Source: Asanoa iriomotensis (GTDB lineage Bacteria; Actinomycetota; Actinomycetes; Mycobacteriales; Micromonosporaceae). Taken from it: 43,963 nt of DNA. The stretch spans positions 1 to 43,963 of the forward strand of contig NZ_BONC01000065.1 of NCBI RefSeq assembly GCF_016862515.1, written 5' to 3'. Below the pieces are notes generated by a model, which did no database searches, was not told the origin of the DNA, and was given only the letters and a program-made list of their open reading frames with translations. Both the position numbers and the translations under genes were made by a program. Below are positions 5,970-12,766 of the stretch, one piece after another (position 1 is the first letter of the stretch; each line of letters begins with the position of its first letter).

Positions 5970-7169
5970 GTGCCGCGCCTCGTCCATGACCGGATCACCC
6001 TGCTGCTCTATCTCCAGCTGGGTGTCTGGGGCTTTTTCCTCTACGGCTTCGGCCCGGTCGTGCCGCTGCTGCGCGACGAGCAGGGTGTGACCGCGGCGCA
6101 GGCGAGCCTGCACGGCACGGGCCTCGCGGTCGGCATCGTGATCGCGGGCTTCATCTTCTCGCCGGTGTCCCGCCGGCTCGGCCGCGGCCCCACGATCTGG
6201 CTCGGCCTGGCGGGCGTGGCCCTGGTCATCGGGATCCTGTGGGTGGCCCGGCCCTTGCCCGTGACGGTCGGCGCCGCGGTGCTCGCCTCGGTCTTCGGCT
6301 CGCTGATCGTCAACGGGGTCAACGCCGCCCTGTCGGACCACCACGCGGCCGCCGCACCGGCGGCCCTGTCGGAAGCGAACGCGACGGCGGCCTTCACGGG
6401 GGTAGTCGCACCCTTGGTGGTGGGCGGCTTCGTGGCTGCCGGTCTGGGTTGGCGGGCGGCGCTGTCGCTGGTGGCAGTGCTCATCCTGGTCGTGCTGCTG
6501 CTCGCGGCCCGGTGGCGGGTGCCGGTGCCGGCACGGCCGGTCTCCGCTTCGGTTCCGGTGGGCACGGCACCCTTGCCGCGCCCCTACTGGATCACGCTGA
6601 TCCTGCTGGCCGCGACGTCGTCGATCGAGGTGTGCTTCTCGCTGTGGGCGGTCGAGGTGCTCCGCACGCACGCCGGCATGGCCTCGGGCCCGGCGGCGGC
6701 CTCCTTCGCCGCGGTCCTGGCCGGCATGTTCGCCGGGCGCCTGGCCGCGGGCCGGGTCGCGCTGCATGTCCCCACGGTCCGCCTGCTGCTGCTGTCGCTG
6801 GGCCTGACGCTGGCGGGCTTCGCGGTGTTCTGGGTGGCGACGGCGGCGTGGCTGGCGGTCACGGGCCTGTTCGTGGTGGGCCTGGGCATGGCGGTCCAGT
6901 ACCCACTGGTGATCTCGCTGGCGTTGGCCGCGGCCCCGGGCCAGGCGGACCGGGCATCAGGCTTGACCTCATATCCGGTCGCCTTCGGCTTCGGCGTGGC
7001 CCCGGTGATCCTGGGCGCCCTCGCGGACCGCTCAGGCACCCACACGGCGTTCCTGGTGCTGCCGGCCTTCATCGCGGCGGCGGTGCTGCTGACGGTGTGG
7101 CTGGCCCGGGTGCTAGCTCTTCCAAAGGTCGGTGAGCCGCACACCGAGATCGTCGAGCAGGTGGCGTAG
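5970..7169 (+). CDS. Major facilitator superfamily transporter
   Basis: About 399 residues with roughly twelve hydrophobic segments and a basic loop after the second one (SRRLGRGPT), typical of MFS drug or metabolite exporters. The family usually has 400-420 residues, so it is complete. The substrate is unknown; closeness to the PadR-controlled ABC exporter suggests efflux but proves nothing. GTG 5970 is preferred to the longer frame start at 5904 because the extra residues are not membrane-like and TACCGT ends exactly 6 nt before 5970. Its 3' end overlaps the convergent maf gene by 57 bases, so the last codons of both are fixed by each other. Confidence 0.88.
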   Translation: MPRLVHDRITLLLYLQLGVWGFFLYGFGPVVPLLRDEQGVTAAQASLHGTGLAVGIVIAGFIFSPVSRRLGRGPTIWLGLAGVALVIGILWVARPLPVTVGAAVLASVFGSLIVNGVNAALSDHHAAAAPAALSEANATAAFTGVVAPLVVGGFVAAGLGWRAALSLVAVLILVVLLLAARWRVPVPARPVSASVPVGTAPLPRPYWITLILLAATSSIEVCFSLWAVEVLRTHAGMASGPAAASFAAVLAGMFAGRLAAGRVALHVPTVRLLLLSLGLTLAGFAVFWVATAAWLAVTGLFVVGLGMAVQYPLVISLALAAAPGQADRASGLTSYPVAFGFGVAPVILGALADRSGTHTAFLVLPAFIAAAVLLTVWLARVLALPKVGEPHTEIVEQVA

Positions 7170-7745
7170 CAAGGGAAGCGACAGCCCCACGACGGTCCCG
7201 TGGTCGCCCTCGATCCGCTCGACGAACGGCCCACCGAGCCCGTCGATGGTGAAGGCCCCGGCGACGTGCAAGGGTTCCCCGGTGGCCACGTAGGCGGCGA
7301 TCTCGTCATCATCGAGCTCGGCGAAGTGCACGGTGGTGGACCCGACGGCCCCGACGGTCACGCCGGCCAGATCGATCAGGTAGTGCCCGGTGTGCAGCAC
7401 CCCGGACCGCCCCCGCATGCCCTGCCACCGCCGAACCGCATCGGCGCCGTCTCTCGGCTTGCCAAGGATCTCGCCGTCGAACTCGAGCACGGAGTCGCAC
7501 CCGAGCACGAGCAGCCGCCCACCAGGACCAACGCTGATCCCTTCGACCCCAAGCCGCCGAGCCACTTCGGTGGCCTTCATCCGCGCAAGCGTGAGACAAA
7601 GCTCCGCGGCGGTGGGTTCCTGGACGGAGCTTTCATCGACGCCGCTGACCACCACCTCCACGTCGATCCCAGCCGCACTGAGCAACGCCCGCCGGGCGGG
7701 ACTCGCGGACGCCAACACCAAGGTCGTAGATCCAGCGGTACGCAC
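7113..7745 (-). CDS. maf: Maf-like nucleoside triphosphate pyrophosphatase
   Basis: A 210-residue Maf/Ham1-fold enzyme that hydrolyses non-canonical or excess nucleotides to monophosphates in the cytoplasm; relatives were first named for inhibition of septum formation. The signature LVLASASPARRALL (residues 9-22), the acidic GCDSVLEFDGEILGKP segment (about 83-98) and the C-terminal IEGDHGTVVGLSLP match the family. The start is GTG at 7745, only 6 bases after the mycosin stop codon, so it is probably co-transcribed with accE and the PE/PPE-like cassette. In mycobacteria maf sits directly beside accE5; here three genes have come between them. The 3' end overlaps the convergent MFS gene. Confidence 0.92.
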   Translation of the reverse strand: MRTAGSTTLVLASASPARRALLSAAGIDVEVVVSGVDESSVQEPTAAELCLTLARMKATEVARRLGVEGISVGPGGRLLVLGCDSVLEFDGEILGKPRDGADAVRRWQGMRGRSGVLHTGHYLIDLAGVTVGAVGSTTVHFAELDDDEIAAYVATGEPLHVAGAFTIDGLGGPFVERIEGDHGTVVGLSLPLLRHLLDDLGVRLTDLWKS

Positions 7746-7751
7746 GAGCAG

Positions 7752-8837
7752 CTACGCTACCGGCCCCCTTCGGCCGCGATGCCGACGGGCATACACATGG
7801 ACCGCGAACGCCGCGATAACAACCACAACCGCAACCAAACCCCAGATAGCAACCCACCTCCCACCCTGCGGCGACGGCTCCGGAGCATTGGTCGCGATCG
7901 TAGTGTTGGGTGGCGCGATCGAAGGGATGTCGTCCGTGAGGGCGGCAACCAGGTTGAGCGCGCCGTAGCCATACTGGTCGTCGTGGCCTGGCTGCCCTTT
8001 GTCCGTCGCAGTGGCCGTGAGGCGACGTATCACCTCGGCAGCGGTCAGCTGAGGGAATCGACTTCGGACCAGAGCAGCAGCTCCAGACACGATTGCGGCG
8101 GCATCCGAGGTACCTGTTCCGGTGCCGTAAGCCCCACGCCGACGGGTTGTCATAATTTCCACTCCAGGCGCGGCGATCACAATGCTCTCGCCAGTCACTG
8201 AAATGTCAGCATGATTGCCTGAGCGATCGGTTGCTCCGACGGCCAATACGCCGGGGTAGGCGGCAGGAAAACCTACTTGCGACATCGGCCTGTTTCCTGC
8301 GGCCGCAACCACCACAATGTTCTTCCGCAACGCATCCTCAACAGCCAACCGTAGATCCGGTGACGGGTTCCCGCCGCCAGAGATGTTGATGACTGTTGCG
8401 CCATTCGCCGTTGCCCAAGCAATCCCGAGCGCCACGTTGTCTTGTCCACCGAGGTCGGTGCCCAGGCTCGCTGCTACCGGCAGTATCTTTGCCTTCGGGG
8501 CGATGCCGATTGCGCCGGTCCCGCCTCGTCCGTGGGCGGCGATTATGCCGGCCATCGCCGTGCCATGGCCAGTCGGGTCGAGGGCTCCGTCGGAAGCCGA
8601 GTTGCCTAAAAGGTTCACCCCAGGCAGGACGTTGAGGCGGAGGTCTGGATGAAGATCGACGCCGCTATCTATTACGGCTACGGTTACGCCCGCACCCTCG
8701 CTAATCTTGTGTGCCGCGGAGACATCAAGGGCTCCAAGATGCCATTGGGCGCTACGGACGTCGTCGCTGCGCACGCTGGTGGCCGCTGCGAGTGTCAGGC
8801 ACACGATTACGTGGACGGCGTGCCGGACCGAAATCAC
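7752..8837 (-). CDS. Mycosin-like S8 serine protease (type VII secretion associated)
   Basis: A 361-residue membrane-anchored subtilisin-like protease. A hydrophobic N-terminal signal (about 7-21) is followed by the S8 domain with Asp57 (AVIDSGVD), His91 (GHGTAMAG), oxyanion Asn182 (AAAGN) and Ser244 (GTSDAAAIVSGAAAL). A proline-rich linker leads to one C-terminal transmembrane segment (about 329-350) and a basic tail. That order is the mycosin (MycP) architecture, in which the protease faces outward and processes or gates ESX substrates. The motif after the catalytic Ser is DAAAI rather than the more usual MAAP-like sequence. Its GTG start overlaps the preceding stop as GTGA, so translation is coupled to the PPE-like gene. 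G+C is lower than in the neighbours. No EccB, EccC, EccD or EccE gene is in the window. Confidence 0.85.
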   Translation of the reverse strand: MISVRHAVHVIVCLTLAAATSVRSDDVRSAQWHLGALDVSAAHKISEGAGVTVAVIDSGVDLHPDLRLNVLPGVNLLGNSASDGALDPTGHGTAMAGIIAAHGRGGTGAIGIAPKAKILPVAASLGTDLGGQDNVALGIAWATANGATVINISGGGNPSPDLRLAVEDALRKNIVVVAAAGNRPMSQVGFPAAYPGVLAVGATDRSGNHADISVTGESIVIAAPGVEIMTTRRRGAYGTGTGTSDAAAIVSGAAALVRSRFPQLTAAEVIRRLTATATDKGQPGHDDQYGYGALNLVAALTDDIPSIAPPNTTIATNAPEPSPQGGRWVAIWGLVAVVVVIAAFAVHVYARRHRGRRGPVA

Positions 8838-10027
8838 CGCTTCAGCCCTATGGCTGGGCCGGGATCGATTTCCGAACTGACTGATAGCGGCATCATGACC
8901 GGCGGTACACCTTCGCGCGTTGCCCAGTGATAGTCGGCGTCCATTCTCTTGATCTTGGGCTCGCTCGGTTGCCCCCGTTGCGGAGGAGGGGGAGTGGACT
9001 GGCCTCCAGTGATCACGCCGCCGGGTGGGTTGACGCGAGTTGTGCCGGGCGACGTTGCATGATCCGCGCCGGTATGCGGCGTCCCGATCACCCCTCCGGC
9101 GGGTAGGGCGTTGCTGGGTCGCAGACCGTGTTGGCCGCCGGAGGACGTGGAACTTGATGGCAGCCTGCGGTCTTCTAGCGCCCGCGACGAAGCGGGCGCT
9201 GGAATCGTGCCGGCGGTTTGCGCATGTGAGGAACTCGCGGCCTCGCCAAAAGATCTTGGGATCGCGCGAGGTGGCATGAAGGGGGCGATATGTTGCCGGG
9301 CATACGCCATTGGATGCGCGCGCGTTCGGTGGTCAGCAGCGGCGCGTTTTTGCGATGCTCTCGGAGGCTCTAGCGCCGCGACTACCGGAGTCGCCGCGAT
9401 AGGTGGCTGTCTCCCGCCTGAAGGAGTCTCCCAGCGGTCGGACGAGTGGTAGGGGATGGGTTGACGGAGCCTCCCTTGGGCAACGACCAGGGTCTGGCTG
9501 AGGTCTGCCATGACTGCGCGGGCCCTAAGGTTCAGGCGTTCTAGGTCTCCGTCGGAGACGGGGGGTGGGCCGAGGGAGGTTCCTGGGAGTTGCGAGGCCT
9601 TTGCTGACTCGACTAGGGCGTCGTAGTTCCTTCTGGTTTCAAGCTTTTCCGCATATTCCGTGTGGATCGCGGCGACCTGTTTGCGGGCCGATTCCAAAGT
9701 GGTGGTTGCTGTGGTTAGGGCGGTGTAGTTGCCCGCCGCCACCTCGTGCGTTTTGCGGACGTGGTCGATCAGATAGTCCAGGCGGGCGATGAACGTCCTC
9801 GCCGCCCCGCTCTTCTCTGGGGGCCACGCTTCCGCGAGTTCGTCCCGGTAGACCTGCAGCCGCGCCATGTGTGTGGCCGTAAGCTCCGTCAGCTTGCGCA
9901 AGCCCGTCGCGTGCCGCCAGTGCGACTCCGTTTCCTGTGGCGCGAGCATCCGCCACATCGACGGAGCGTCGTGGCGGGACCAGTCCGTCGCGGCCGCCGG
10001 GGTCGTGCCGGCCAGCGTCTCACGCAT
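8834..10027 (-). CDS. PPE-like putative type VII secretion substrate with Pro/Ser-rich tail
   Basis: A 397-residue protein of no family I can name firmly. Residues about 20-190 look all-helical and have a W-x5-G-A-A-x2-F pattern (W68, G74) in a turn, similar in place and kind to the WxG turn of PPE proteins. Residues about 195-397 are rich in Pro, Ser, Thr, Gly and Ala and look disordered. It follows a smaller helical protein with an 8-base overlap and precedes a mycosin with a 4-base overlap, as in PE/PPE/mycosin neighbourhoods. G+C is low for the window (50% in 9601-9660), suggesting transfer. A role as a secreted or surface substrate paired with the upstream protein is inferred; a helical protein of other function remains possible. 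Confidence 0.6.
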   Translation of the reverse strand: MRETLAGTTPAAATDWSRHDAPSMWRMLAPQETESHWRHATGLRKLTELTATHMARLQVYRDELAEAWPPEKSGAARTFIARLDYLIDHVRKTHEVAAGNYTALTTATTTLESARKQVAAIHTEYAEKLETRRNYDALVESAKASQLPGTSLGPPPVSDGDLERLNLRARAVMADLSQTLVVAQGRLRQPIPYHSSDRWETPSGGRQPPIAATPVVAALEPPRASQKRAAADHRTRAHPMAYARQHIAPFMPPRAIPRSFGEAASSSHAQTAGTIPAPASSRALEDRRLPSSSTSSGGQHGLRPSNALPAGGVIGTPHTGADHATSPGTTRVNPPGGVITGGQSTPPPPQRGQPSEPKIKRMDADYHWATREGVPPVMMPLSVSSEIDPGPAIGLKR

Positions 10028-10421
10028 CGGTGGCTCCGGCGGCCGTCTTGTCCAGGGCCGCCTCGACGTCCGTGACCCGGGCCGCAGCGAAAGCGTCCGA
10101 GCCTCGGTAGTTGCGGCTCACCTCGCCCGCCGCGACGGCGAAGCCGCCGGTGACGTCCTGGTAGTAGTACACGGTGTAGGCCGTGTCCTGCGCGGTCGCC
10201 GTATGGCTCTCCAGGAAAAGCAATAGTTCCGGAAAATCCGTGTAAGCCGGCGGTAGCTCCGCAAGGATGTCGTCGAAGATCGGCGCCACGTGGGGCGCCA
10301 GGTTGTCGCGGACCTCGGCGTCCAGTTTGGTGGCGAACTCCTCCAGGCGTTGGATGTCCGCCTCGATCGTGGCGTAGTCGCGCAGCCACGCCGGGGGAAG
10401 GTCCTCGTTGGACTGCGCCAT
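10020..10421 (-). CDS. Small helical PE/WXG100-like putative type VII secretion partner
   Basis: A 133-residue acidic, mostly helical protein with no signal peptide. It has YATIE (16-20) and YRGSD (105-109); the latter matches the YxxxD/E secretion signal of ESX substrates in a position after the helical region, as in PE proteins of about 100 residues. A strong GAGGAGGG ribosome-binding site lies about 8 nt before the ATG at 10421. The stop overlaps the start of the PPE-like gene by 8 bases, which fits two proteins made in equal amounts as a heterodimer. PE genes normally precede PPE genes, as seen here. The gene lies 87 bases downstream of accE on the same strand. Assignment rests on motif, size and context, not on a recognised family. 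Confidence 0.55.
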   Translation of the reverse strand: MAQSNEDLPPAWLRDYATIEADIQRLEEFATKLDAEVRDNLAPHVAPIFDDILAELPPAYTDFPELLLFLESHTATAQDTAYTVYYYQDVTGGFAVAAGEVSRNYRGSDAFAAARVTDVEAALDKTAAGATDA

Positions 10422-10508
10422 ACGTCAAACCCTCCTCGCGGTCACCGAGTGGTTGCTGACCGTGAGGCTAGACCCCGCGCGCCAGAGCGCGCAGCCCCAA
10501 ATGTGCGA

Positions 10509-10706
10509 CTAGCGCGGCAGCGCCGACGCCCGCCAGGCCCCAGGCCCCACCGGCAGCGGGCCCGGACGGGCGGATCGGGCCCAAAGCGACGAAACCGGCG
10601 CCGCCGCCGGCGGGCCCGGACGCAGCGACAACGCGCCGACCAAGGCCGCCAACTCCTCCGCGGTCGGCATGCCGCGGGTGACACGAAACAGGGGTTCCTG
10701 TGACAT
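10509..10706 (-). CDS. accE: Acyl-CoA carboxylase epsilon subunit
   Basis: A 65-residue protein beginning MSQEPLFRVTRGMPTAEELA, the typical start of actinobacterial AccE, the small subunit that binds between alpha and beta subunits and stimulates acyl-CoA carboxylase. The rest is Pro/Ala-rich and variable, as usual, ending with a WARSAR...WRASALPR segment. I chose ATG 10706 rather than the longer frame start at 10772: TACGCT (10713-10718) ends exactly 6 nt upstream, and the residues before it are unlike the family. In mycobacteria accE lies next to accD5; here accD5 is almost 7 kb away. The PE/PPE-like cassette follows on the same strand. Confidence 0.85.
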   Translation of the reverse strand: MSQEPLFRVTRGMPTAEELAALVGALSLRPGPPAAAPVSSLWARSARPGPLPVGPGAWRASALPR

Positions 10707-10789: not shown

Positions 10790-12766
10790 ATGTCGATGAC
10801 TCAGCCGCCGCTCGTCGCCGACCGGTATCGACTGATCGAGCCGCTCGGGCAAGGCGGCATGGGCCGGGTCTGGCGTGCGCTCGACGAGGTCCTGCACCGC
10901 GAGGTCGCGATCAAGGAGCTTGTCCCGCCGCCGGGACTGACCGACGAAGAGCGTCGGGAGATGCGGGAGCGGTCGCTCCGCGAGGCGCGGGCGATCGCCC
11001 GACTGAATCACGTCAACGTGGTACGCATCTTCGACGTCCTCCGTACCGACGGCGACCCGTGGATCGTCATGGAGTACGTCGCCTCCCGCTCGCTACAGGA
11101 CGTGATCGCCGCCGACGGGCCGTTGCCAGCCGTACGCGTCGCGGAGATCGGGCTCGGCATGCTCGCCGCCCTGCGCGCCGCGCACCGGGCCGGCGTCGTG
11201 CACCGCGACATCAAGCCCGCCAACGTCCTGCTCGCCGACGACGGCCGGGTCGTGCTCACCGACTGGGGCCTGGCCACCATGCCCGGCGACCCCAGCGTCA
11301 CCCGCACCGGGCTCGTCCTCGGCTCTCCCGCCTACATCGCCCCTGAGCGCGCCCGCGACGGCACCTCCGGGCCCCGCACCGACATGTGGTCGCTCGGCGC
11401 CACGCTCTACGCCGCCGTCGAGGGGCAGTCGCCGTTCGCGCGGCCGTCGGCGCTGGCCACCCTCGCCGCGCTCGCCACCGAGCCGCCGGCGCCCGCGCGT
11501 CGGGCCGGGCAGCTGCGGCCCGTCCTCAATGGACTGCTCCGCAAAGATCCGGCCGACCGGATCGACCCGGAGGAGGCCGACCGCTTGTTGCGGCGCGCGT
11601 CCGGCCGCAAGACCGTCGCGCGTCGCCCGCTGCTGGAAGGGGTACGCCGGCCCACCGCGCTGCGCGACCGCCACGGCTTCCCGCCCCTGCCGGCCGCCCC
11701 CGCCTCACCGGCCGCGCCCACTCCGCAGAGCCCGGCACCCACACCGCAAAGCCCTGCGCCGCAAGGCCGCGCACCTCAACCCCGCGCGCCGCACGACCCA
11801 CCCGGCGCCGGCGTCTGGCCGATCTCACCCGCCAGCCCCACCGCCGCCCCGTCGAGCCCGGCCGCACCGACCTCACCGGCCGACGACGATCAGGAAACGG
11901 ACCGCCCGGCCGTCATCCCAGGATCCCCGGCCGGACCGACGGCCCGCCCAACCTCCCCGGCGACCCGCCCGATCTCCCCGGCCACGCGCCCGATCTCGCC
12001 CGCCGGCCTCACCGCCCGACCGACCTCCCCGGCCGGCCGCGCCAGCGTCCCGCCGCCCGGCACCTTCCCGCCCGCCAAGCGCCGCAAAGACCAGCGCACC
12101 CGCTCCCTCGCCGTGCTGGCCGGAGCCCTAGCCGCCGTCGTACTCATGATGGCCGTCGTCCTGCTCTTCCTCCGCGACGACGAGCCGGCCGACCAGCGCA
12201 CCGCCAACCCACCCGCCAACGCCACCAAGCCGGCGCCGACCCAGACCACGGCAGGCCAGCCACAGACCACCGAGCCGACCACCAACCCGCCCGCACCGAC
12301 CACGCCGGCGGCGTTCGTCCTCCCGAGCGGCTGGCGGATGCGCGACGACGGCAGCGGCTTCAAGGTGCCGGTGCCCGAGGGCTGGACGTTCAGCCGCGAC
12401 GGTGACGGCCGGCCCCGGTGGAGCGAGCCCAACGGCAACCGCTTCCTGCTCATGGACCAGACCCGGACACCGCGGCCCGATCCGCGCCAGGACTGGCTCA
12501 ACAACGAGCGCGCGCGGCGCAGCGGCTACGCCGACTACCAGCGGATCAGGATCGCGACGGTCCGGTACTGGCAGAAGGCCGCCGACTGGGAGTTCACCTA
12601 CACCTCCAACAGCGGCACCCGGCTGCACGTCCTCAACCGCGGCTTCGTCACCGCCGACGACCAGGCCTACTCGATCTACTGGAGCACGCCCGACAGCCAG
12701 TGGCAGGCCAGCCGCGACATGCTCGACGTCATCTTGAAGGGGTTCGAGCCGGCCCGGCGTGACTGA
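10790..12766 (+). CDS. Transmembrane serine/threonine protein kinase with extracellular domain
   Basis: About 658 residues. The kinase domain (about 12-290) has the glycine loop LGQGGMGRVW, VAIK with Lys42, the catalytic loop HRDIKPAN (Asp140), GSPAYIAPE and TDMWSLG. The metal-binding DFG is DWG here (158-160), an uncommon substitution. A Pro/Ala/Ser/Thr-rich stalk with repeated RPISPAT units covers about 325-450, then one transmembrane helix (about 460-480), a threonine/proline spacer, and an outer domain of about 150 residues rich in aromatic residues that matches no sensor domain I know; PASTA repeats are absent. It probably phosphorylates cytoplasmic targets in response to an envelope signal. 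The start is uncertain: GTG 10787, ATG 10790 or ATG 10796; TACGGT (10776-10781) suggests a leaderless message beginning there. Divergent from accE. Confidence 0.9.
   Translation: MSMTQPPLVADRYRLIEPLGQGGMGRVWRALDEVLHREVAIKELVPPPGLTDEERREMRERSLREARAIARLNHVNVVRIFDVLRTDGDPWIVMEYVASRSLQDVIAADGPLPAVRVAEIGLGMLAALRAAHRAGVVHRDIKPANVLLADDGRVVLTDWGLATMPGDPSVTRTGLVLGSPAYIAPERARDGTSGPRTDMWSLGATLYAAVEGQSPFARPSALATLAALATEPPAPARRAGQLRPVLNGLLRKDPADRIDPEEADRLLRRASGRKTVARRPLLEGVRRPTALRDRHGFPPLPAAPASPAAPTPQSPAPTPQSPAPQGRAPQPRAPHDPPGAGVWPISPASPTAAPSSPAAPTSPADDDQETDRPAVIPGSPAGPTARPTSPATRPISPATRPISPAGLTARPTSPAGRASVPPPGTFPPAKRRKDQRTRSLAVLAGALAAVVLMMAVVLLFLRDDEPADQRTANPPANATKPAPTQTTAGQPQTTEPTTNPPAPTTPAAFVLPSGWRMRDDGSGFKVPVPEGWTFSRDGDGRPRWSEPNGNRFLLMDQTRTPRPDPRQDWLNNERARRSGYADYQRIRIATVRYWQKAADWEFTYTSNSGTRLHVLNRGFVTADDQAYSIYWSTPDSQWQASRDMLDVILKGFEPARRD

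Follow-up and report, generated by a model that had tools for sequence, protein, structure and literature searches.

Three overlapping minus-strand genes of the soil actinomycete Asanoa iriomotensis encode a small PE-like protein (133 residues), a PPE-like protein (397 residues) and a mycosin (361 residues). They lie in a 43,963-nucleotide stretch of DNA (contig NZ_BONC01000065.1; hereafter the window), and we consider, at a probability of roughly 0.7, that this trio forms the substrate and mycosin part of an ESX-4-like type VII secretion system (T7SS) with scattered genes, in which the PE-like and PPE-like products would pair, be exported by a core encoded elsewhere and be acted on by the mycosin. 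An initial annotation, made from the letters of the window, had described the three genes with overlaps of 8 and 4 bases, and all of its coordinates proved correct: in the list of open reading frames (ORFs) the 133- and 397-residue genes share 8 bases and the 397- and 361-residue genes share 4. The trio and its parts are listed below; genomes, contigs and loci are denoted by G, C and L numbers, respectively.

10020..10421, minus strand: PE-like gene, 133 residues (ORF; predicted helices; best Foldseek match PE25)
10095..10109, minus strand: YxxxD motif Y105-RGS-D109 of the PE-like protein, candidate T7SS signal, just past helix 2
8834..10027, minus strand: PPE-like gene, 397 residues, with helical N-domain, Pro/Ser/Gly linker and conserved tail (Foldseek matches PPE41, PPE4 and PPE15)
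9809..9826, minus strand: W68-PPEKS turn joining the two long helices of the PPE-like protein (alignment and AlphaFold2 model)
8993..9430, minus strand: low-complexity Pro/Ser/Gly linker with GGVIG-type motifs, fast-evolving (alignment A2)
8846..8926, minus strand: conserved C-terminal tail W...G...DPGPAIG (alignment A2)
7752..8837, minus strand: mycosin gene, 361 residues, GTG start (TIGR03921, PF00082)
8667-8669, minus strand: mycosin D57, catalytic residue
8565-8567, minus strand: mycosin H91, catalytic residue
8292-8294, minus strand: mycosin N182, oxyanion residue
8106-8108, minus strand: mycosin S244, catalytic residue
7800-7856, minus strand: C-terminal transmembrane segment of the mycosin, residues 328-346, a single stretch with a mean hydropathy of 2.73

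Helical hairpins of the PE/PPE type are predicted for the PE-like protein and for about 200 residues at the N-terminus of the PPE-like protein. The AlphaFold2 model of the PE-like protein (49 sequences) has helices at residues 11-52 and 64-104, and the model of PPE-like residues 1-207 (48 sequences) has helices at 34-67 and 74-145, with a predicted local distance difference test score (pLDDT) of 89.2 and a predicted template-modelling score (pTM) of 0.77. Both were compared with 350,542 PDB chains using Foldseek, the identity of PE25, PE8 and PPE chains in the lists being taken from entry title and length. For the PPE-like model, PPE41 occupies ranks 1-4, PPE4 ranks 6-8 and 13, and PPE15 rank 10 (probability 1.00, TM-score by target up to 0.69, E-value 5.4e-3 at best); with these chains ahead and its high pLDDT, the model is assigned to the PPE fold. 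For the PE-like model, PE25 is found at ranks 1-3 and 5 (probabilities 0.94, 0.38, 0.84 and 0.28) and PE8 at rank 21; the top match, 4kxr_A, has a TM-score of 0.69 by target at a probability of 0.94 and an E-value of 1.0, for a model with a pLDDT of 76. Chains of a TelA-LXG/LapA3/LapA4 complex come in at ranks 4 and 7. PPE41 and PE25, the top matches of two independent searches run without a hint, are the partners of one solved heterodimer.

The mycobacterial pairs PE25-PPE41, PE5-PPE4 and PE8-PPE15 are the best fold matches to the window pair. In mycobacterial PE/PPE pairs a small PE gene stands directly upstream of the PPE gene, the proteins are helical hairpins with a W-containing turn, and the small partner carries YxxxD past its helix 2; the letters of the T7SS signal motif are YxxxD/E. 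The window pair likewise has the small gene first, predicted hairpins, a W turn and YxxxD past helix 2. It differs in lacking any Pfam PE or PPE match, in having no PE or PPE letters visible by eye at the respective N-termini, in its W...DPGPAIG tail and in its own mycosin, the gene of which overlaps the PPE-like gene. Y105 and D109 are invariant across the 49 aligned PE-like sequences, and 77 of 80 named loci contain the pattern Y...[DE]A[FL], from which the other three deviate at the final letter alone. It is the PE partner that bears the C-terminal signal in the part of the literature account available (PMC11217815). The 133-residue helical protein with a YxxxD motif of the initial annotation is borne out by the model, Y105-RGS-D109 being the motif concerned. 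Its description of the larger protein holds for the helical N-terminal part, the Pro-rich tail and the presence of a W-x5-G turn (W68-PPEKS-G74), but not for conservation of the glycine: over 48 sequences W68 and P70 are invariant and P69 is nearly so, while G74 falls outside the conserved columns, which leaves W-P-P as the conserved part of the turn.

Beyond the N-domain, the tail pattern DPGP[AVT]IG is present in 71 of 79 named loci. The proportion of nonsynonymous differences (pN) to four congeners is 0.46-0.50 in the linker, against 0.15-0.29 in the N-domain and 0.27-0.46 in the tail. A fast linker between a conserved N-domain and a conserved tail is what would be expected of a substrate with a cleavable spacer, although a pattern of this kind is not proof of cleavage. 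By eye, the linkers of the PPE-like protein and its orthologues contain recurring GGVIG, GGLIGG and GPVLGG motifs. At the C-terminus of PPE-like proteins from otherwise distant ESX loci, an acidic stretch with a W also appears by eye to precede P/V/L/I-G (PPPVLG and PPPPVLG versus DPGPAIG; compared at window positions 8846-8926, L073 10051-11397 and L072 2922-4427), and this ending may perhaps be a shared recognition element.

Neither protein belongs to a named family, in keeping with the initial annotation. Pfam and NCBIfam give nothing meaningful for either, WXG100 and WXG100_2 (PF06013 and PF25547) included, and hidden Markov model searches place neither in the PE, PPE or WXG100 families. 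In Pfam, the 20 and 17 orthologues of alignments A1 and A2 likewise match nothing of note. The Pfam PE family, which we take to be PF00934, matches neither the window protein nor 20 members of alignment A1, and the PPE family, presumably PF00823, matches neither the window protein nor 17 members of alignment A2. Profile searches returned no related PDB sequence for either protein.

The 361-residue protein scores 287.2 bits against the curated mycosin model TIGR03921, above its cut-off of 278.75, and contains a subtilase domain (PF00082, 170.1 bits). It has an N-terminal signal region (mean hydropathy 1.84), an intact catalytic triad and the transmembrane segment at residues 328-346, in agreement with the membrane-anchored mycosin first proposed. 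In the alignment columns of 79 named loci, the catalytic Ser is kept in all 79, His in 78 (one gap) and Asp in 77 (two gaps); the oxyanion Asn is kept in 78, the remaining protein having Asp, and a crude count finds a transmembrane-like C-terminus in 77. A pseudo-mycosin is rejected, since the triad is kept. With phmmer the protein retrieves subtilisin-type proteases, with no mycosin among the best 60 of 128 matches. MycP1 and MycP3 carry disulfides; the window mycosin has no Cys beyond residue 25 and hence no disulfides of this type, which TIGR03921 does not require. In L098 and L140 the mycosin is broken across two frames.

Homologues of the trio are found beside EccC in ESX clusters of Micromonosporaceae. 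The order EccB-EccD-EccC-PE-PPE-mycosin is present in L181, L184, L235, L236 and L239, as well as in L238, where EccB is cut by the edge; in L254 and L237 a PE paralogue directly follows EccC and EccB is absent from the stretch. In hhalign comparisons the window PE family matches the PE genes directly after EccC at 98.3% (E = 2.5e-14) and the window PPE family matches the PPE genes of EccC clusters at 98.3% (E = 1.4e-14), whereas the match to the canonical-locus PE is weaker (85.6%, E = 5.5e-6). The ten cluster loci compared were L181, L184, L235, L236, L238 and L239 together with L182, L183, L187 and L188, the last four being assigned to the cluster type through their PE and PPE matches alone and not through the full gene order. 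The complete clusters have homologous PE, PPE and mycosin genes in the same order as the window, but their trio follows EccC, whereas in the window it stands, without any core gene, between accE and maf. Unlike the window protein, the PPE-like proteins of L181 (28.1) and L184 (28.0) also pass PF25547 WXG100_2 (cut-off 27). The initial reading of the pair as secretion substrates is supported by these neighbours of EccC, by the separate helical hairpin models and by PPE41 and PE25 as their top matches. In Micromonospora-like genomes, 13 weak second PE-profile matches (E = 1.9e-5 to 3.9e-4) have a listed EccC at a distance of ~5-7 kb, as judged by eye from the positions. Further trios without accE-maf or core genes in the stretch occur in L240, L241, L246, L247 and L249; L251 has no PPE match. 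A distant PE-like gene lies beside two WXG100-like genes in L185 (G137:C5, 5813-16999) and L186 (G178:C54), and L185 also has a 661-residue PPE-like gene and a 2087-residue ORF, the latter perhaps a large T7SS cargo.

The trio is flanked by accE and a divergent kinase upstream and by maf downstream, as follows.

10506..10706, minus strand: accE, acyl-CoA carboxylase epsilon subunit (PF13822, 42.6 bits, cut-off 25)
10793..12766, plus strand: Ser/Thr protein kinase, divergent (PF00069, 153.2 bits; start set by eye)
7113..7745, minus strand: maf (PF02545, 181.7 bits)

The accE-maf trio is an old block of the family, because the order kinase-accE-PE-PPE-mycosin-maf recurs across it; the earlier description of the pair as inserted between accE and maf in this genome is therefore abandoned, and a local insertion or mobile element is rejected on the same recurrence in related loci. 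A single-sequence search with the 133-residue protein gave a match in 234 of 300 sampled Micromonosporaceae genomes (27 of 44 genera), and a search with profile A1 in 76 of 101 genomes (35 of 44 genera), weak paralogues counted; in an order-level sample 47 of 298 genomes were matched, 46 of them inside the family. The nearest named match is in Asanoa siamensis (83% identity). The full order is found in all 20 fetched relatives, although in some of them mycosin and maf are separated by extra genes. Another 86 relatives were confirmed by scanning named genomes, and the best 80 of these were added to give 100 related loci (93 distinct, seven present twice). In 99 of the 100, PE, PPE and mycosin occur together on one strand, and the trio is thus not a chance grouping; the remaining locus (L107) is cut short by the end of its contig. 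The divergent kinase is present in all 100 loci, accE in 99 (none detected in L103) and maf in 96 (L107, L113 and L123 stop near the trio; L127 is an unexplained miss). Of 79 named loci, 77 have -8 to +2 bases between PE stop and PPE start, and two gave no usable value; a PPE-before-PE order listed for six loci stems from long open frames, the midpoints of which were used for ordering. None of the 100 loci has PE and PPE fused naturally as in EspB, and a fusion of this kind was rejected. L131 (Actinoplanes couchii) has two tandem copies of the whole PE-PPE-mycosin unit between accE and maf, and L242, L244 and L253 are rearranged accE-maf loci with PPE and mycosin ahead of PE. The kinase (10793-12766) adjoins accE and the trio in every one of the 100 loci, and a regulatory tie to the trio is possible.

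The initial annotation had found no ESX core gene near the trio and had called the pair orphan. The former statement stands, with no EccC, EccB or WXG100 match on the contig of the window (EccE was not searched for), and the window holds the trio alone rather than a one-cluster ESX-4-like locus with EccB, EccC, EccD, mycosin and substrates. The term orphan fits the locus but not the genome, which has two EccC loci, one of them without recognisable substrates. The two EccC above cut-off lie on contigs C41 and C29 and the two EccB on C41 and C27. C41 and C95 resemble two ends of one canonical locus, as seen in the single-contig congener G072 (L234). C29 carries EccC-EccD-mycosin beside genes named by eye as ppa, dacB and tilS. 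EccC, EccD and mycosin are present in 12 of 12 ppa-linked regions of relatives (L222-L233), and no PE, PPE or Esx gene was found in any of these 16-18 kb stretches or in the C29 core itself (L070), the check covering all frames of at least 60 codons and a small WXG100 profile in regions picked by EccD. On the one contig of G072 the canonical EccC (2.17 Mb), the ppa-linked EccD (2.69 Mb) and the trio PE (3.17 Mb) all lie apart; the separation of core and trio is therefore no effect of assembly. On C27, EccB is accompanied by two WXG100 genes (L074, 6754-9060) and a 703-residue neighbour, both EccC being on other contigs.

EccC as such is above cut-off in all 300 sampled family genomes. A trio-type PE (E <= 1e-40) is present in 33 of 101 genomes, and EccD beside ppa was seen in 31 of these 33, compared with four of 20 PE-less genomes (20 listed of 25, judged by their best EccD loci; 43 genomes with weaker PE matches left out). 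Ignoring kinship, Fisher's test gives 4e-8 per genome and, at 12 of 13 versus four of 11, 0.008 per genus. In the unrooted EccC tree (28 rows), ppa-linked and complete-cluster sequences are split from the canonical ones with support of 100/100, and the unrooted EccD tree (26 rows) agrees; L228 (EccC) and L228 and L231 (EccD) were omitted, being broken or swallowed in the ORF calls. The unrooted EccB tree places the C27 EccB with complete clusters, on a long branch flagged by the program. In the unrooted mycosin tree (44 rows from a chosen set of stretches), trio and complete-cluster mycosins group together (95/91), and ppa-linked mycosins (98/94) and both kinds of canonical mycosins stand apart from those of the trio.

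We propose the following course of events. The products of the overlapping PE-like and PPE-like genes most likely pair as a four-helix bundle in the cytosol, and an EccC ATPase whose gene lies elsewhere would take up YxxxD past helix 2 of the PE-like partner. This EccC is most likely that of the substrate-less EccC-EccD-mycosin core beside ppa, to which co-occurrence and trees both point. The pair would then be exported across the membrane and be acted on by its dedicated mycosin, the membrane anchor of which would leave the catalytic domain on the outer side. The mycosin probably cuts the PPE-like linker or the conserved tail, docks on the core complex, or does both. That this protease works on the pair alone, as the initial annotation had suggested, is possible.

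Several observations weigh against this proposal. All Foldseek E-values are above 0.001 (best 5.4e-3 for the PPE-like and 1.0 for the PE-like model), arfaptin and other BAR-type coiled coils rank between and after the PPE chains, the PE-like model is only moderate (pLDDT 76, pTM 0.57), and no PE, PPE or WXG100 profile or PDB sequence recognises either protein. The presence of a mycosin beside close homologues in 99 of 100 loci does not extend to the distant PE homologues of L185, L186 and L250, which have no mycosin match in the stretch. Both Fisher values are overstated because the genomes are related. Among the 33 genomes with a trio-type PE, G002 (810 contigs) has no EccD match, and G077, with an EccD candidate outside the examined set, is not counted in the 31; four PE-less genomes (G027, G038, G064 and G074) have EccD beside ppa all the same, and G059, with EccD beside dacB alone, is a possible fifth. 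The complete-cluster mycosin of L237 stands beside the ppa group, away from the trio. Finally, a canonical ESX locus is present in the same genome and could serve instead.

Export of the same pair by this canonical locus (EsxAB-EccC-EccD-EccE-EccB), with the ppa-linked core serving something else, is an unlikely but substantial alternative. EccC is universal in the sampled family genomes, and canonical loci are at hand both in Asanoa iriomotensis (C41) and on the single contig of G072 (L234). The table for Micromonospora lupini, as far as the available part of the paper extends, gives one eccB, in the canonical cluster, so that the ppa core may lack an EccB of its own in this species (PMC4182475). 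Nevertheless, the canonical locus has PE-like and PPE-like genes of its own, its PE is more distant from the trio PE than are those of EccC clusters (85.6% versus 98.3%), and trio-type PE tracks ppa-linked EccD, whereas EccC as such is found everywhere.

It is distinctly improbable that the pair is not secreted at all and that its members remain in the cell or at the membrane, where they would regulate the mycosin or serve it as adaptors, or that the mycosin is a structural clamp on an ESX core without proteolysis of the pair. In mycobacteria, mycosins have a proteolytic role and a non-proteolytic one in stabilising the membrane core complex, and their protease activity is dispensable for ESX-1 secretion, according to the available text of PMC5082899. 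No signal peptide was seen by eye in the PE-like or PPE-like protein, and neither is in a named family, which would also suit such a reading. Against it, the catalytic residues are nearly always kept (S 79/79, H 78/79 and D 77/79, the misses being gaps), Y and D of the YxxxD motif do not vary across the 49 aligned sequences and the fold resembles that of secreted PE/PPE pairs. That the proteins are generic helical hairpins next to a subtilase, with no tie to type VII secretion, is hardly credible despite the weak Foldseek E-values and the BAR-type coiled coils, given the mycosin equivalog, the homologues directly after EccC in ESX clusters and the two partners of one heterodimer topping separate searches.

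Returning to the dispersed ESX-4-like system, a wider version of it can be offered only tentatively. Micromonosporaceae might possess a working but `exploded' ESX, the parts of which act in trans: the ppa core, the accE-maf pair with its mycosin and, here, a third site that holds EccB and a WXG100 pair. The accE-maf mycosin would be the maturation protease of the PPE-like protein, and the roles of clamp and protease would be split between core and substrate mycosins. In one-mycosin systems, proteolysis and core stabilisation are tangled in the same protein, in the account available to us (PMC5082899). Since core and substrates here lie at separate loci with separate mycosins, each could be deleted separately, and the contributions of proteolysis and core stabilisation therefore become askable.

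PE/PPE export pairs have been described from mycobacteria and some mycolic-acid-containing relatives (PMC4791881, PMC11217815, in the parts available), and the accessible part of PMC4791881 notes that ESX-4 clusters occur in Micromonosporales, that an ESX-4-related subgroup of mycolic-acid genera has pe/ppe genes, and that the order to which Micromonosporaceae belong lacks mycolic acids. Here, a pair of PE/PPE-like proteins without a Pfam match has a counterpart in 234 of 300 sampled genomes of such a family. No description of the trio as PE/PPE-like was found in the open-access literature, as far as its accessible text goes and subscription papers apart; the words `Micromonospor' and `orphan' do not occur in the available main text of PMC11217815. 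The T7SS of Micromonospora lupini Lupac 08 is described as a canonical cluster, a second cluster of `esxA, esxB, mycP' and a third of eccC-eccD-mycP, which looks like the ppa-linked core; in the available part of that account the pair is not termed PE/PPE-like and the clusters are not linked to each other (PMC4182475). Its table, as available, places tad genes ~16 gene numbers from the second cluster (PMC4182475). In neither G164 nor G082 did a motif scan of the 60 kb surrounding the trio reveal a TadA-type ATPase, which speaks against equating that cluster with the accE-maf trio; the two may or may not be the same.

MycP1-EspB of ESX-1 offers a precedent for a mycosin acting on an ESX substrate, as proposed for the trio. 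Within ESX-1, EspB forms one PE-PPE-like chain, whereas the trio has two chains and no core. EspB is also the only mycosin substrate that the available text of PMC5082899 mentions.

The PPE-like and mycosin genes have a lower GC content at third codon positions (GC3; 0.72 and 0.66) than the PE-like gene (0.87) and maf (0.83). A recent import of these two genes, considered on account of the low GC3, was dropped because four congeners have equally low values. Synonymous divergence (dS) to the four congeners is about twofold higher for the PPE-like and mycosin genes (1.35-1.9) than for maf (0.57-0.75), and low codon bias or repeated recombination could be the source of both features.

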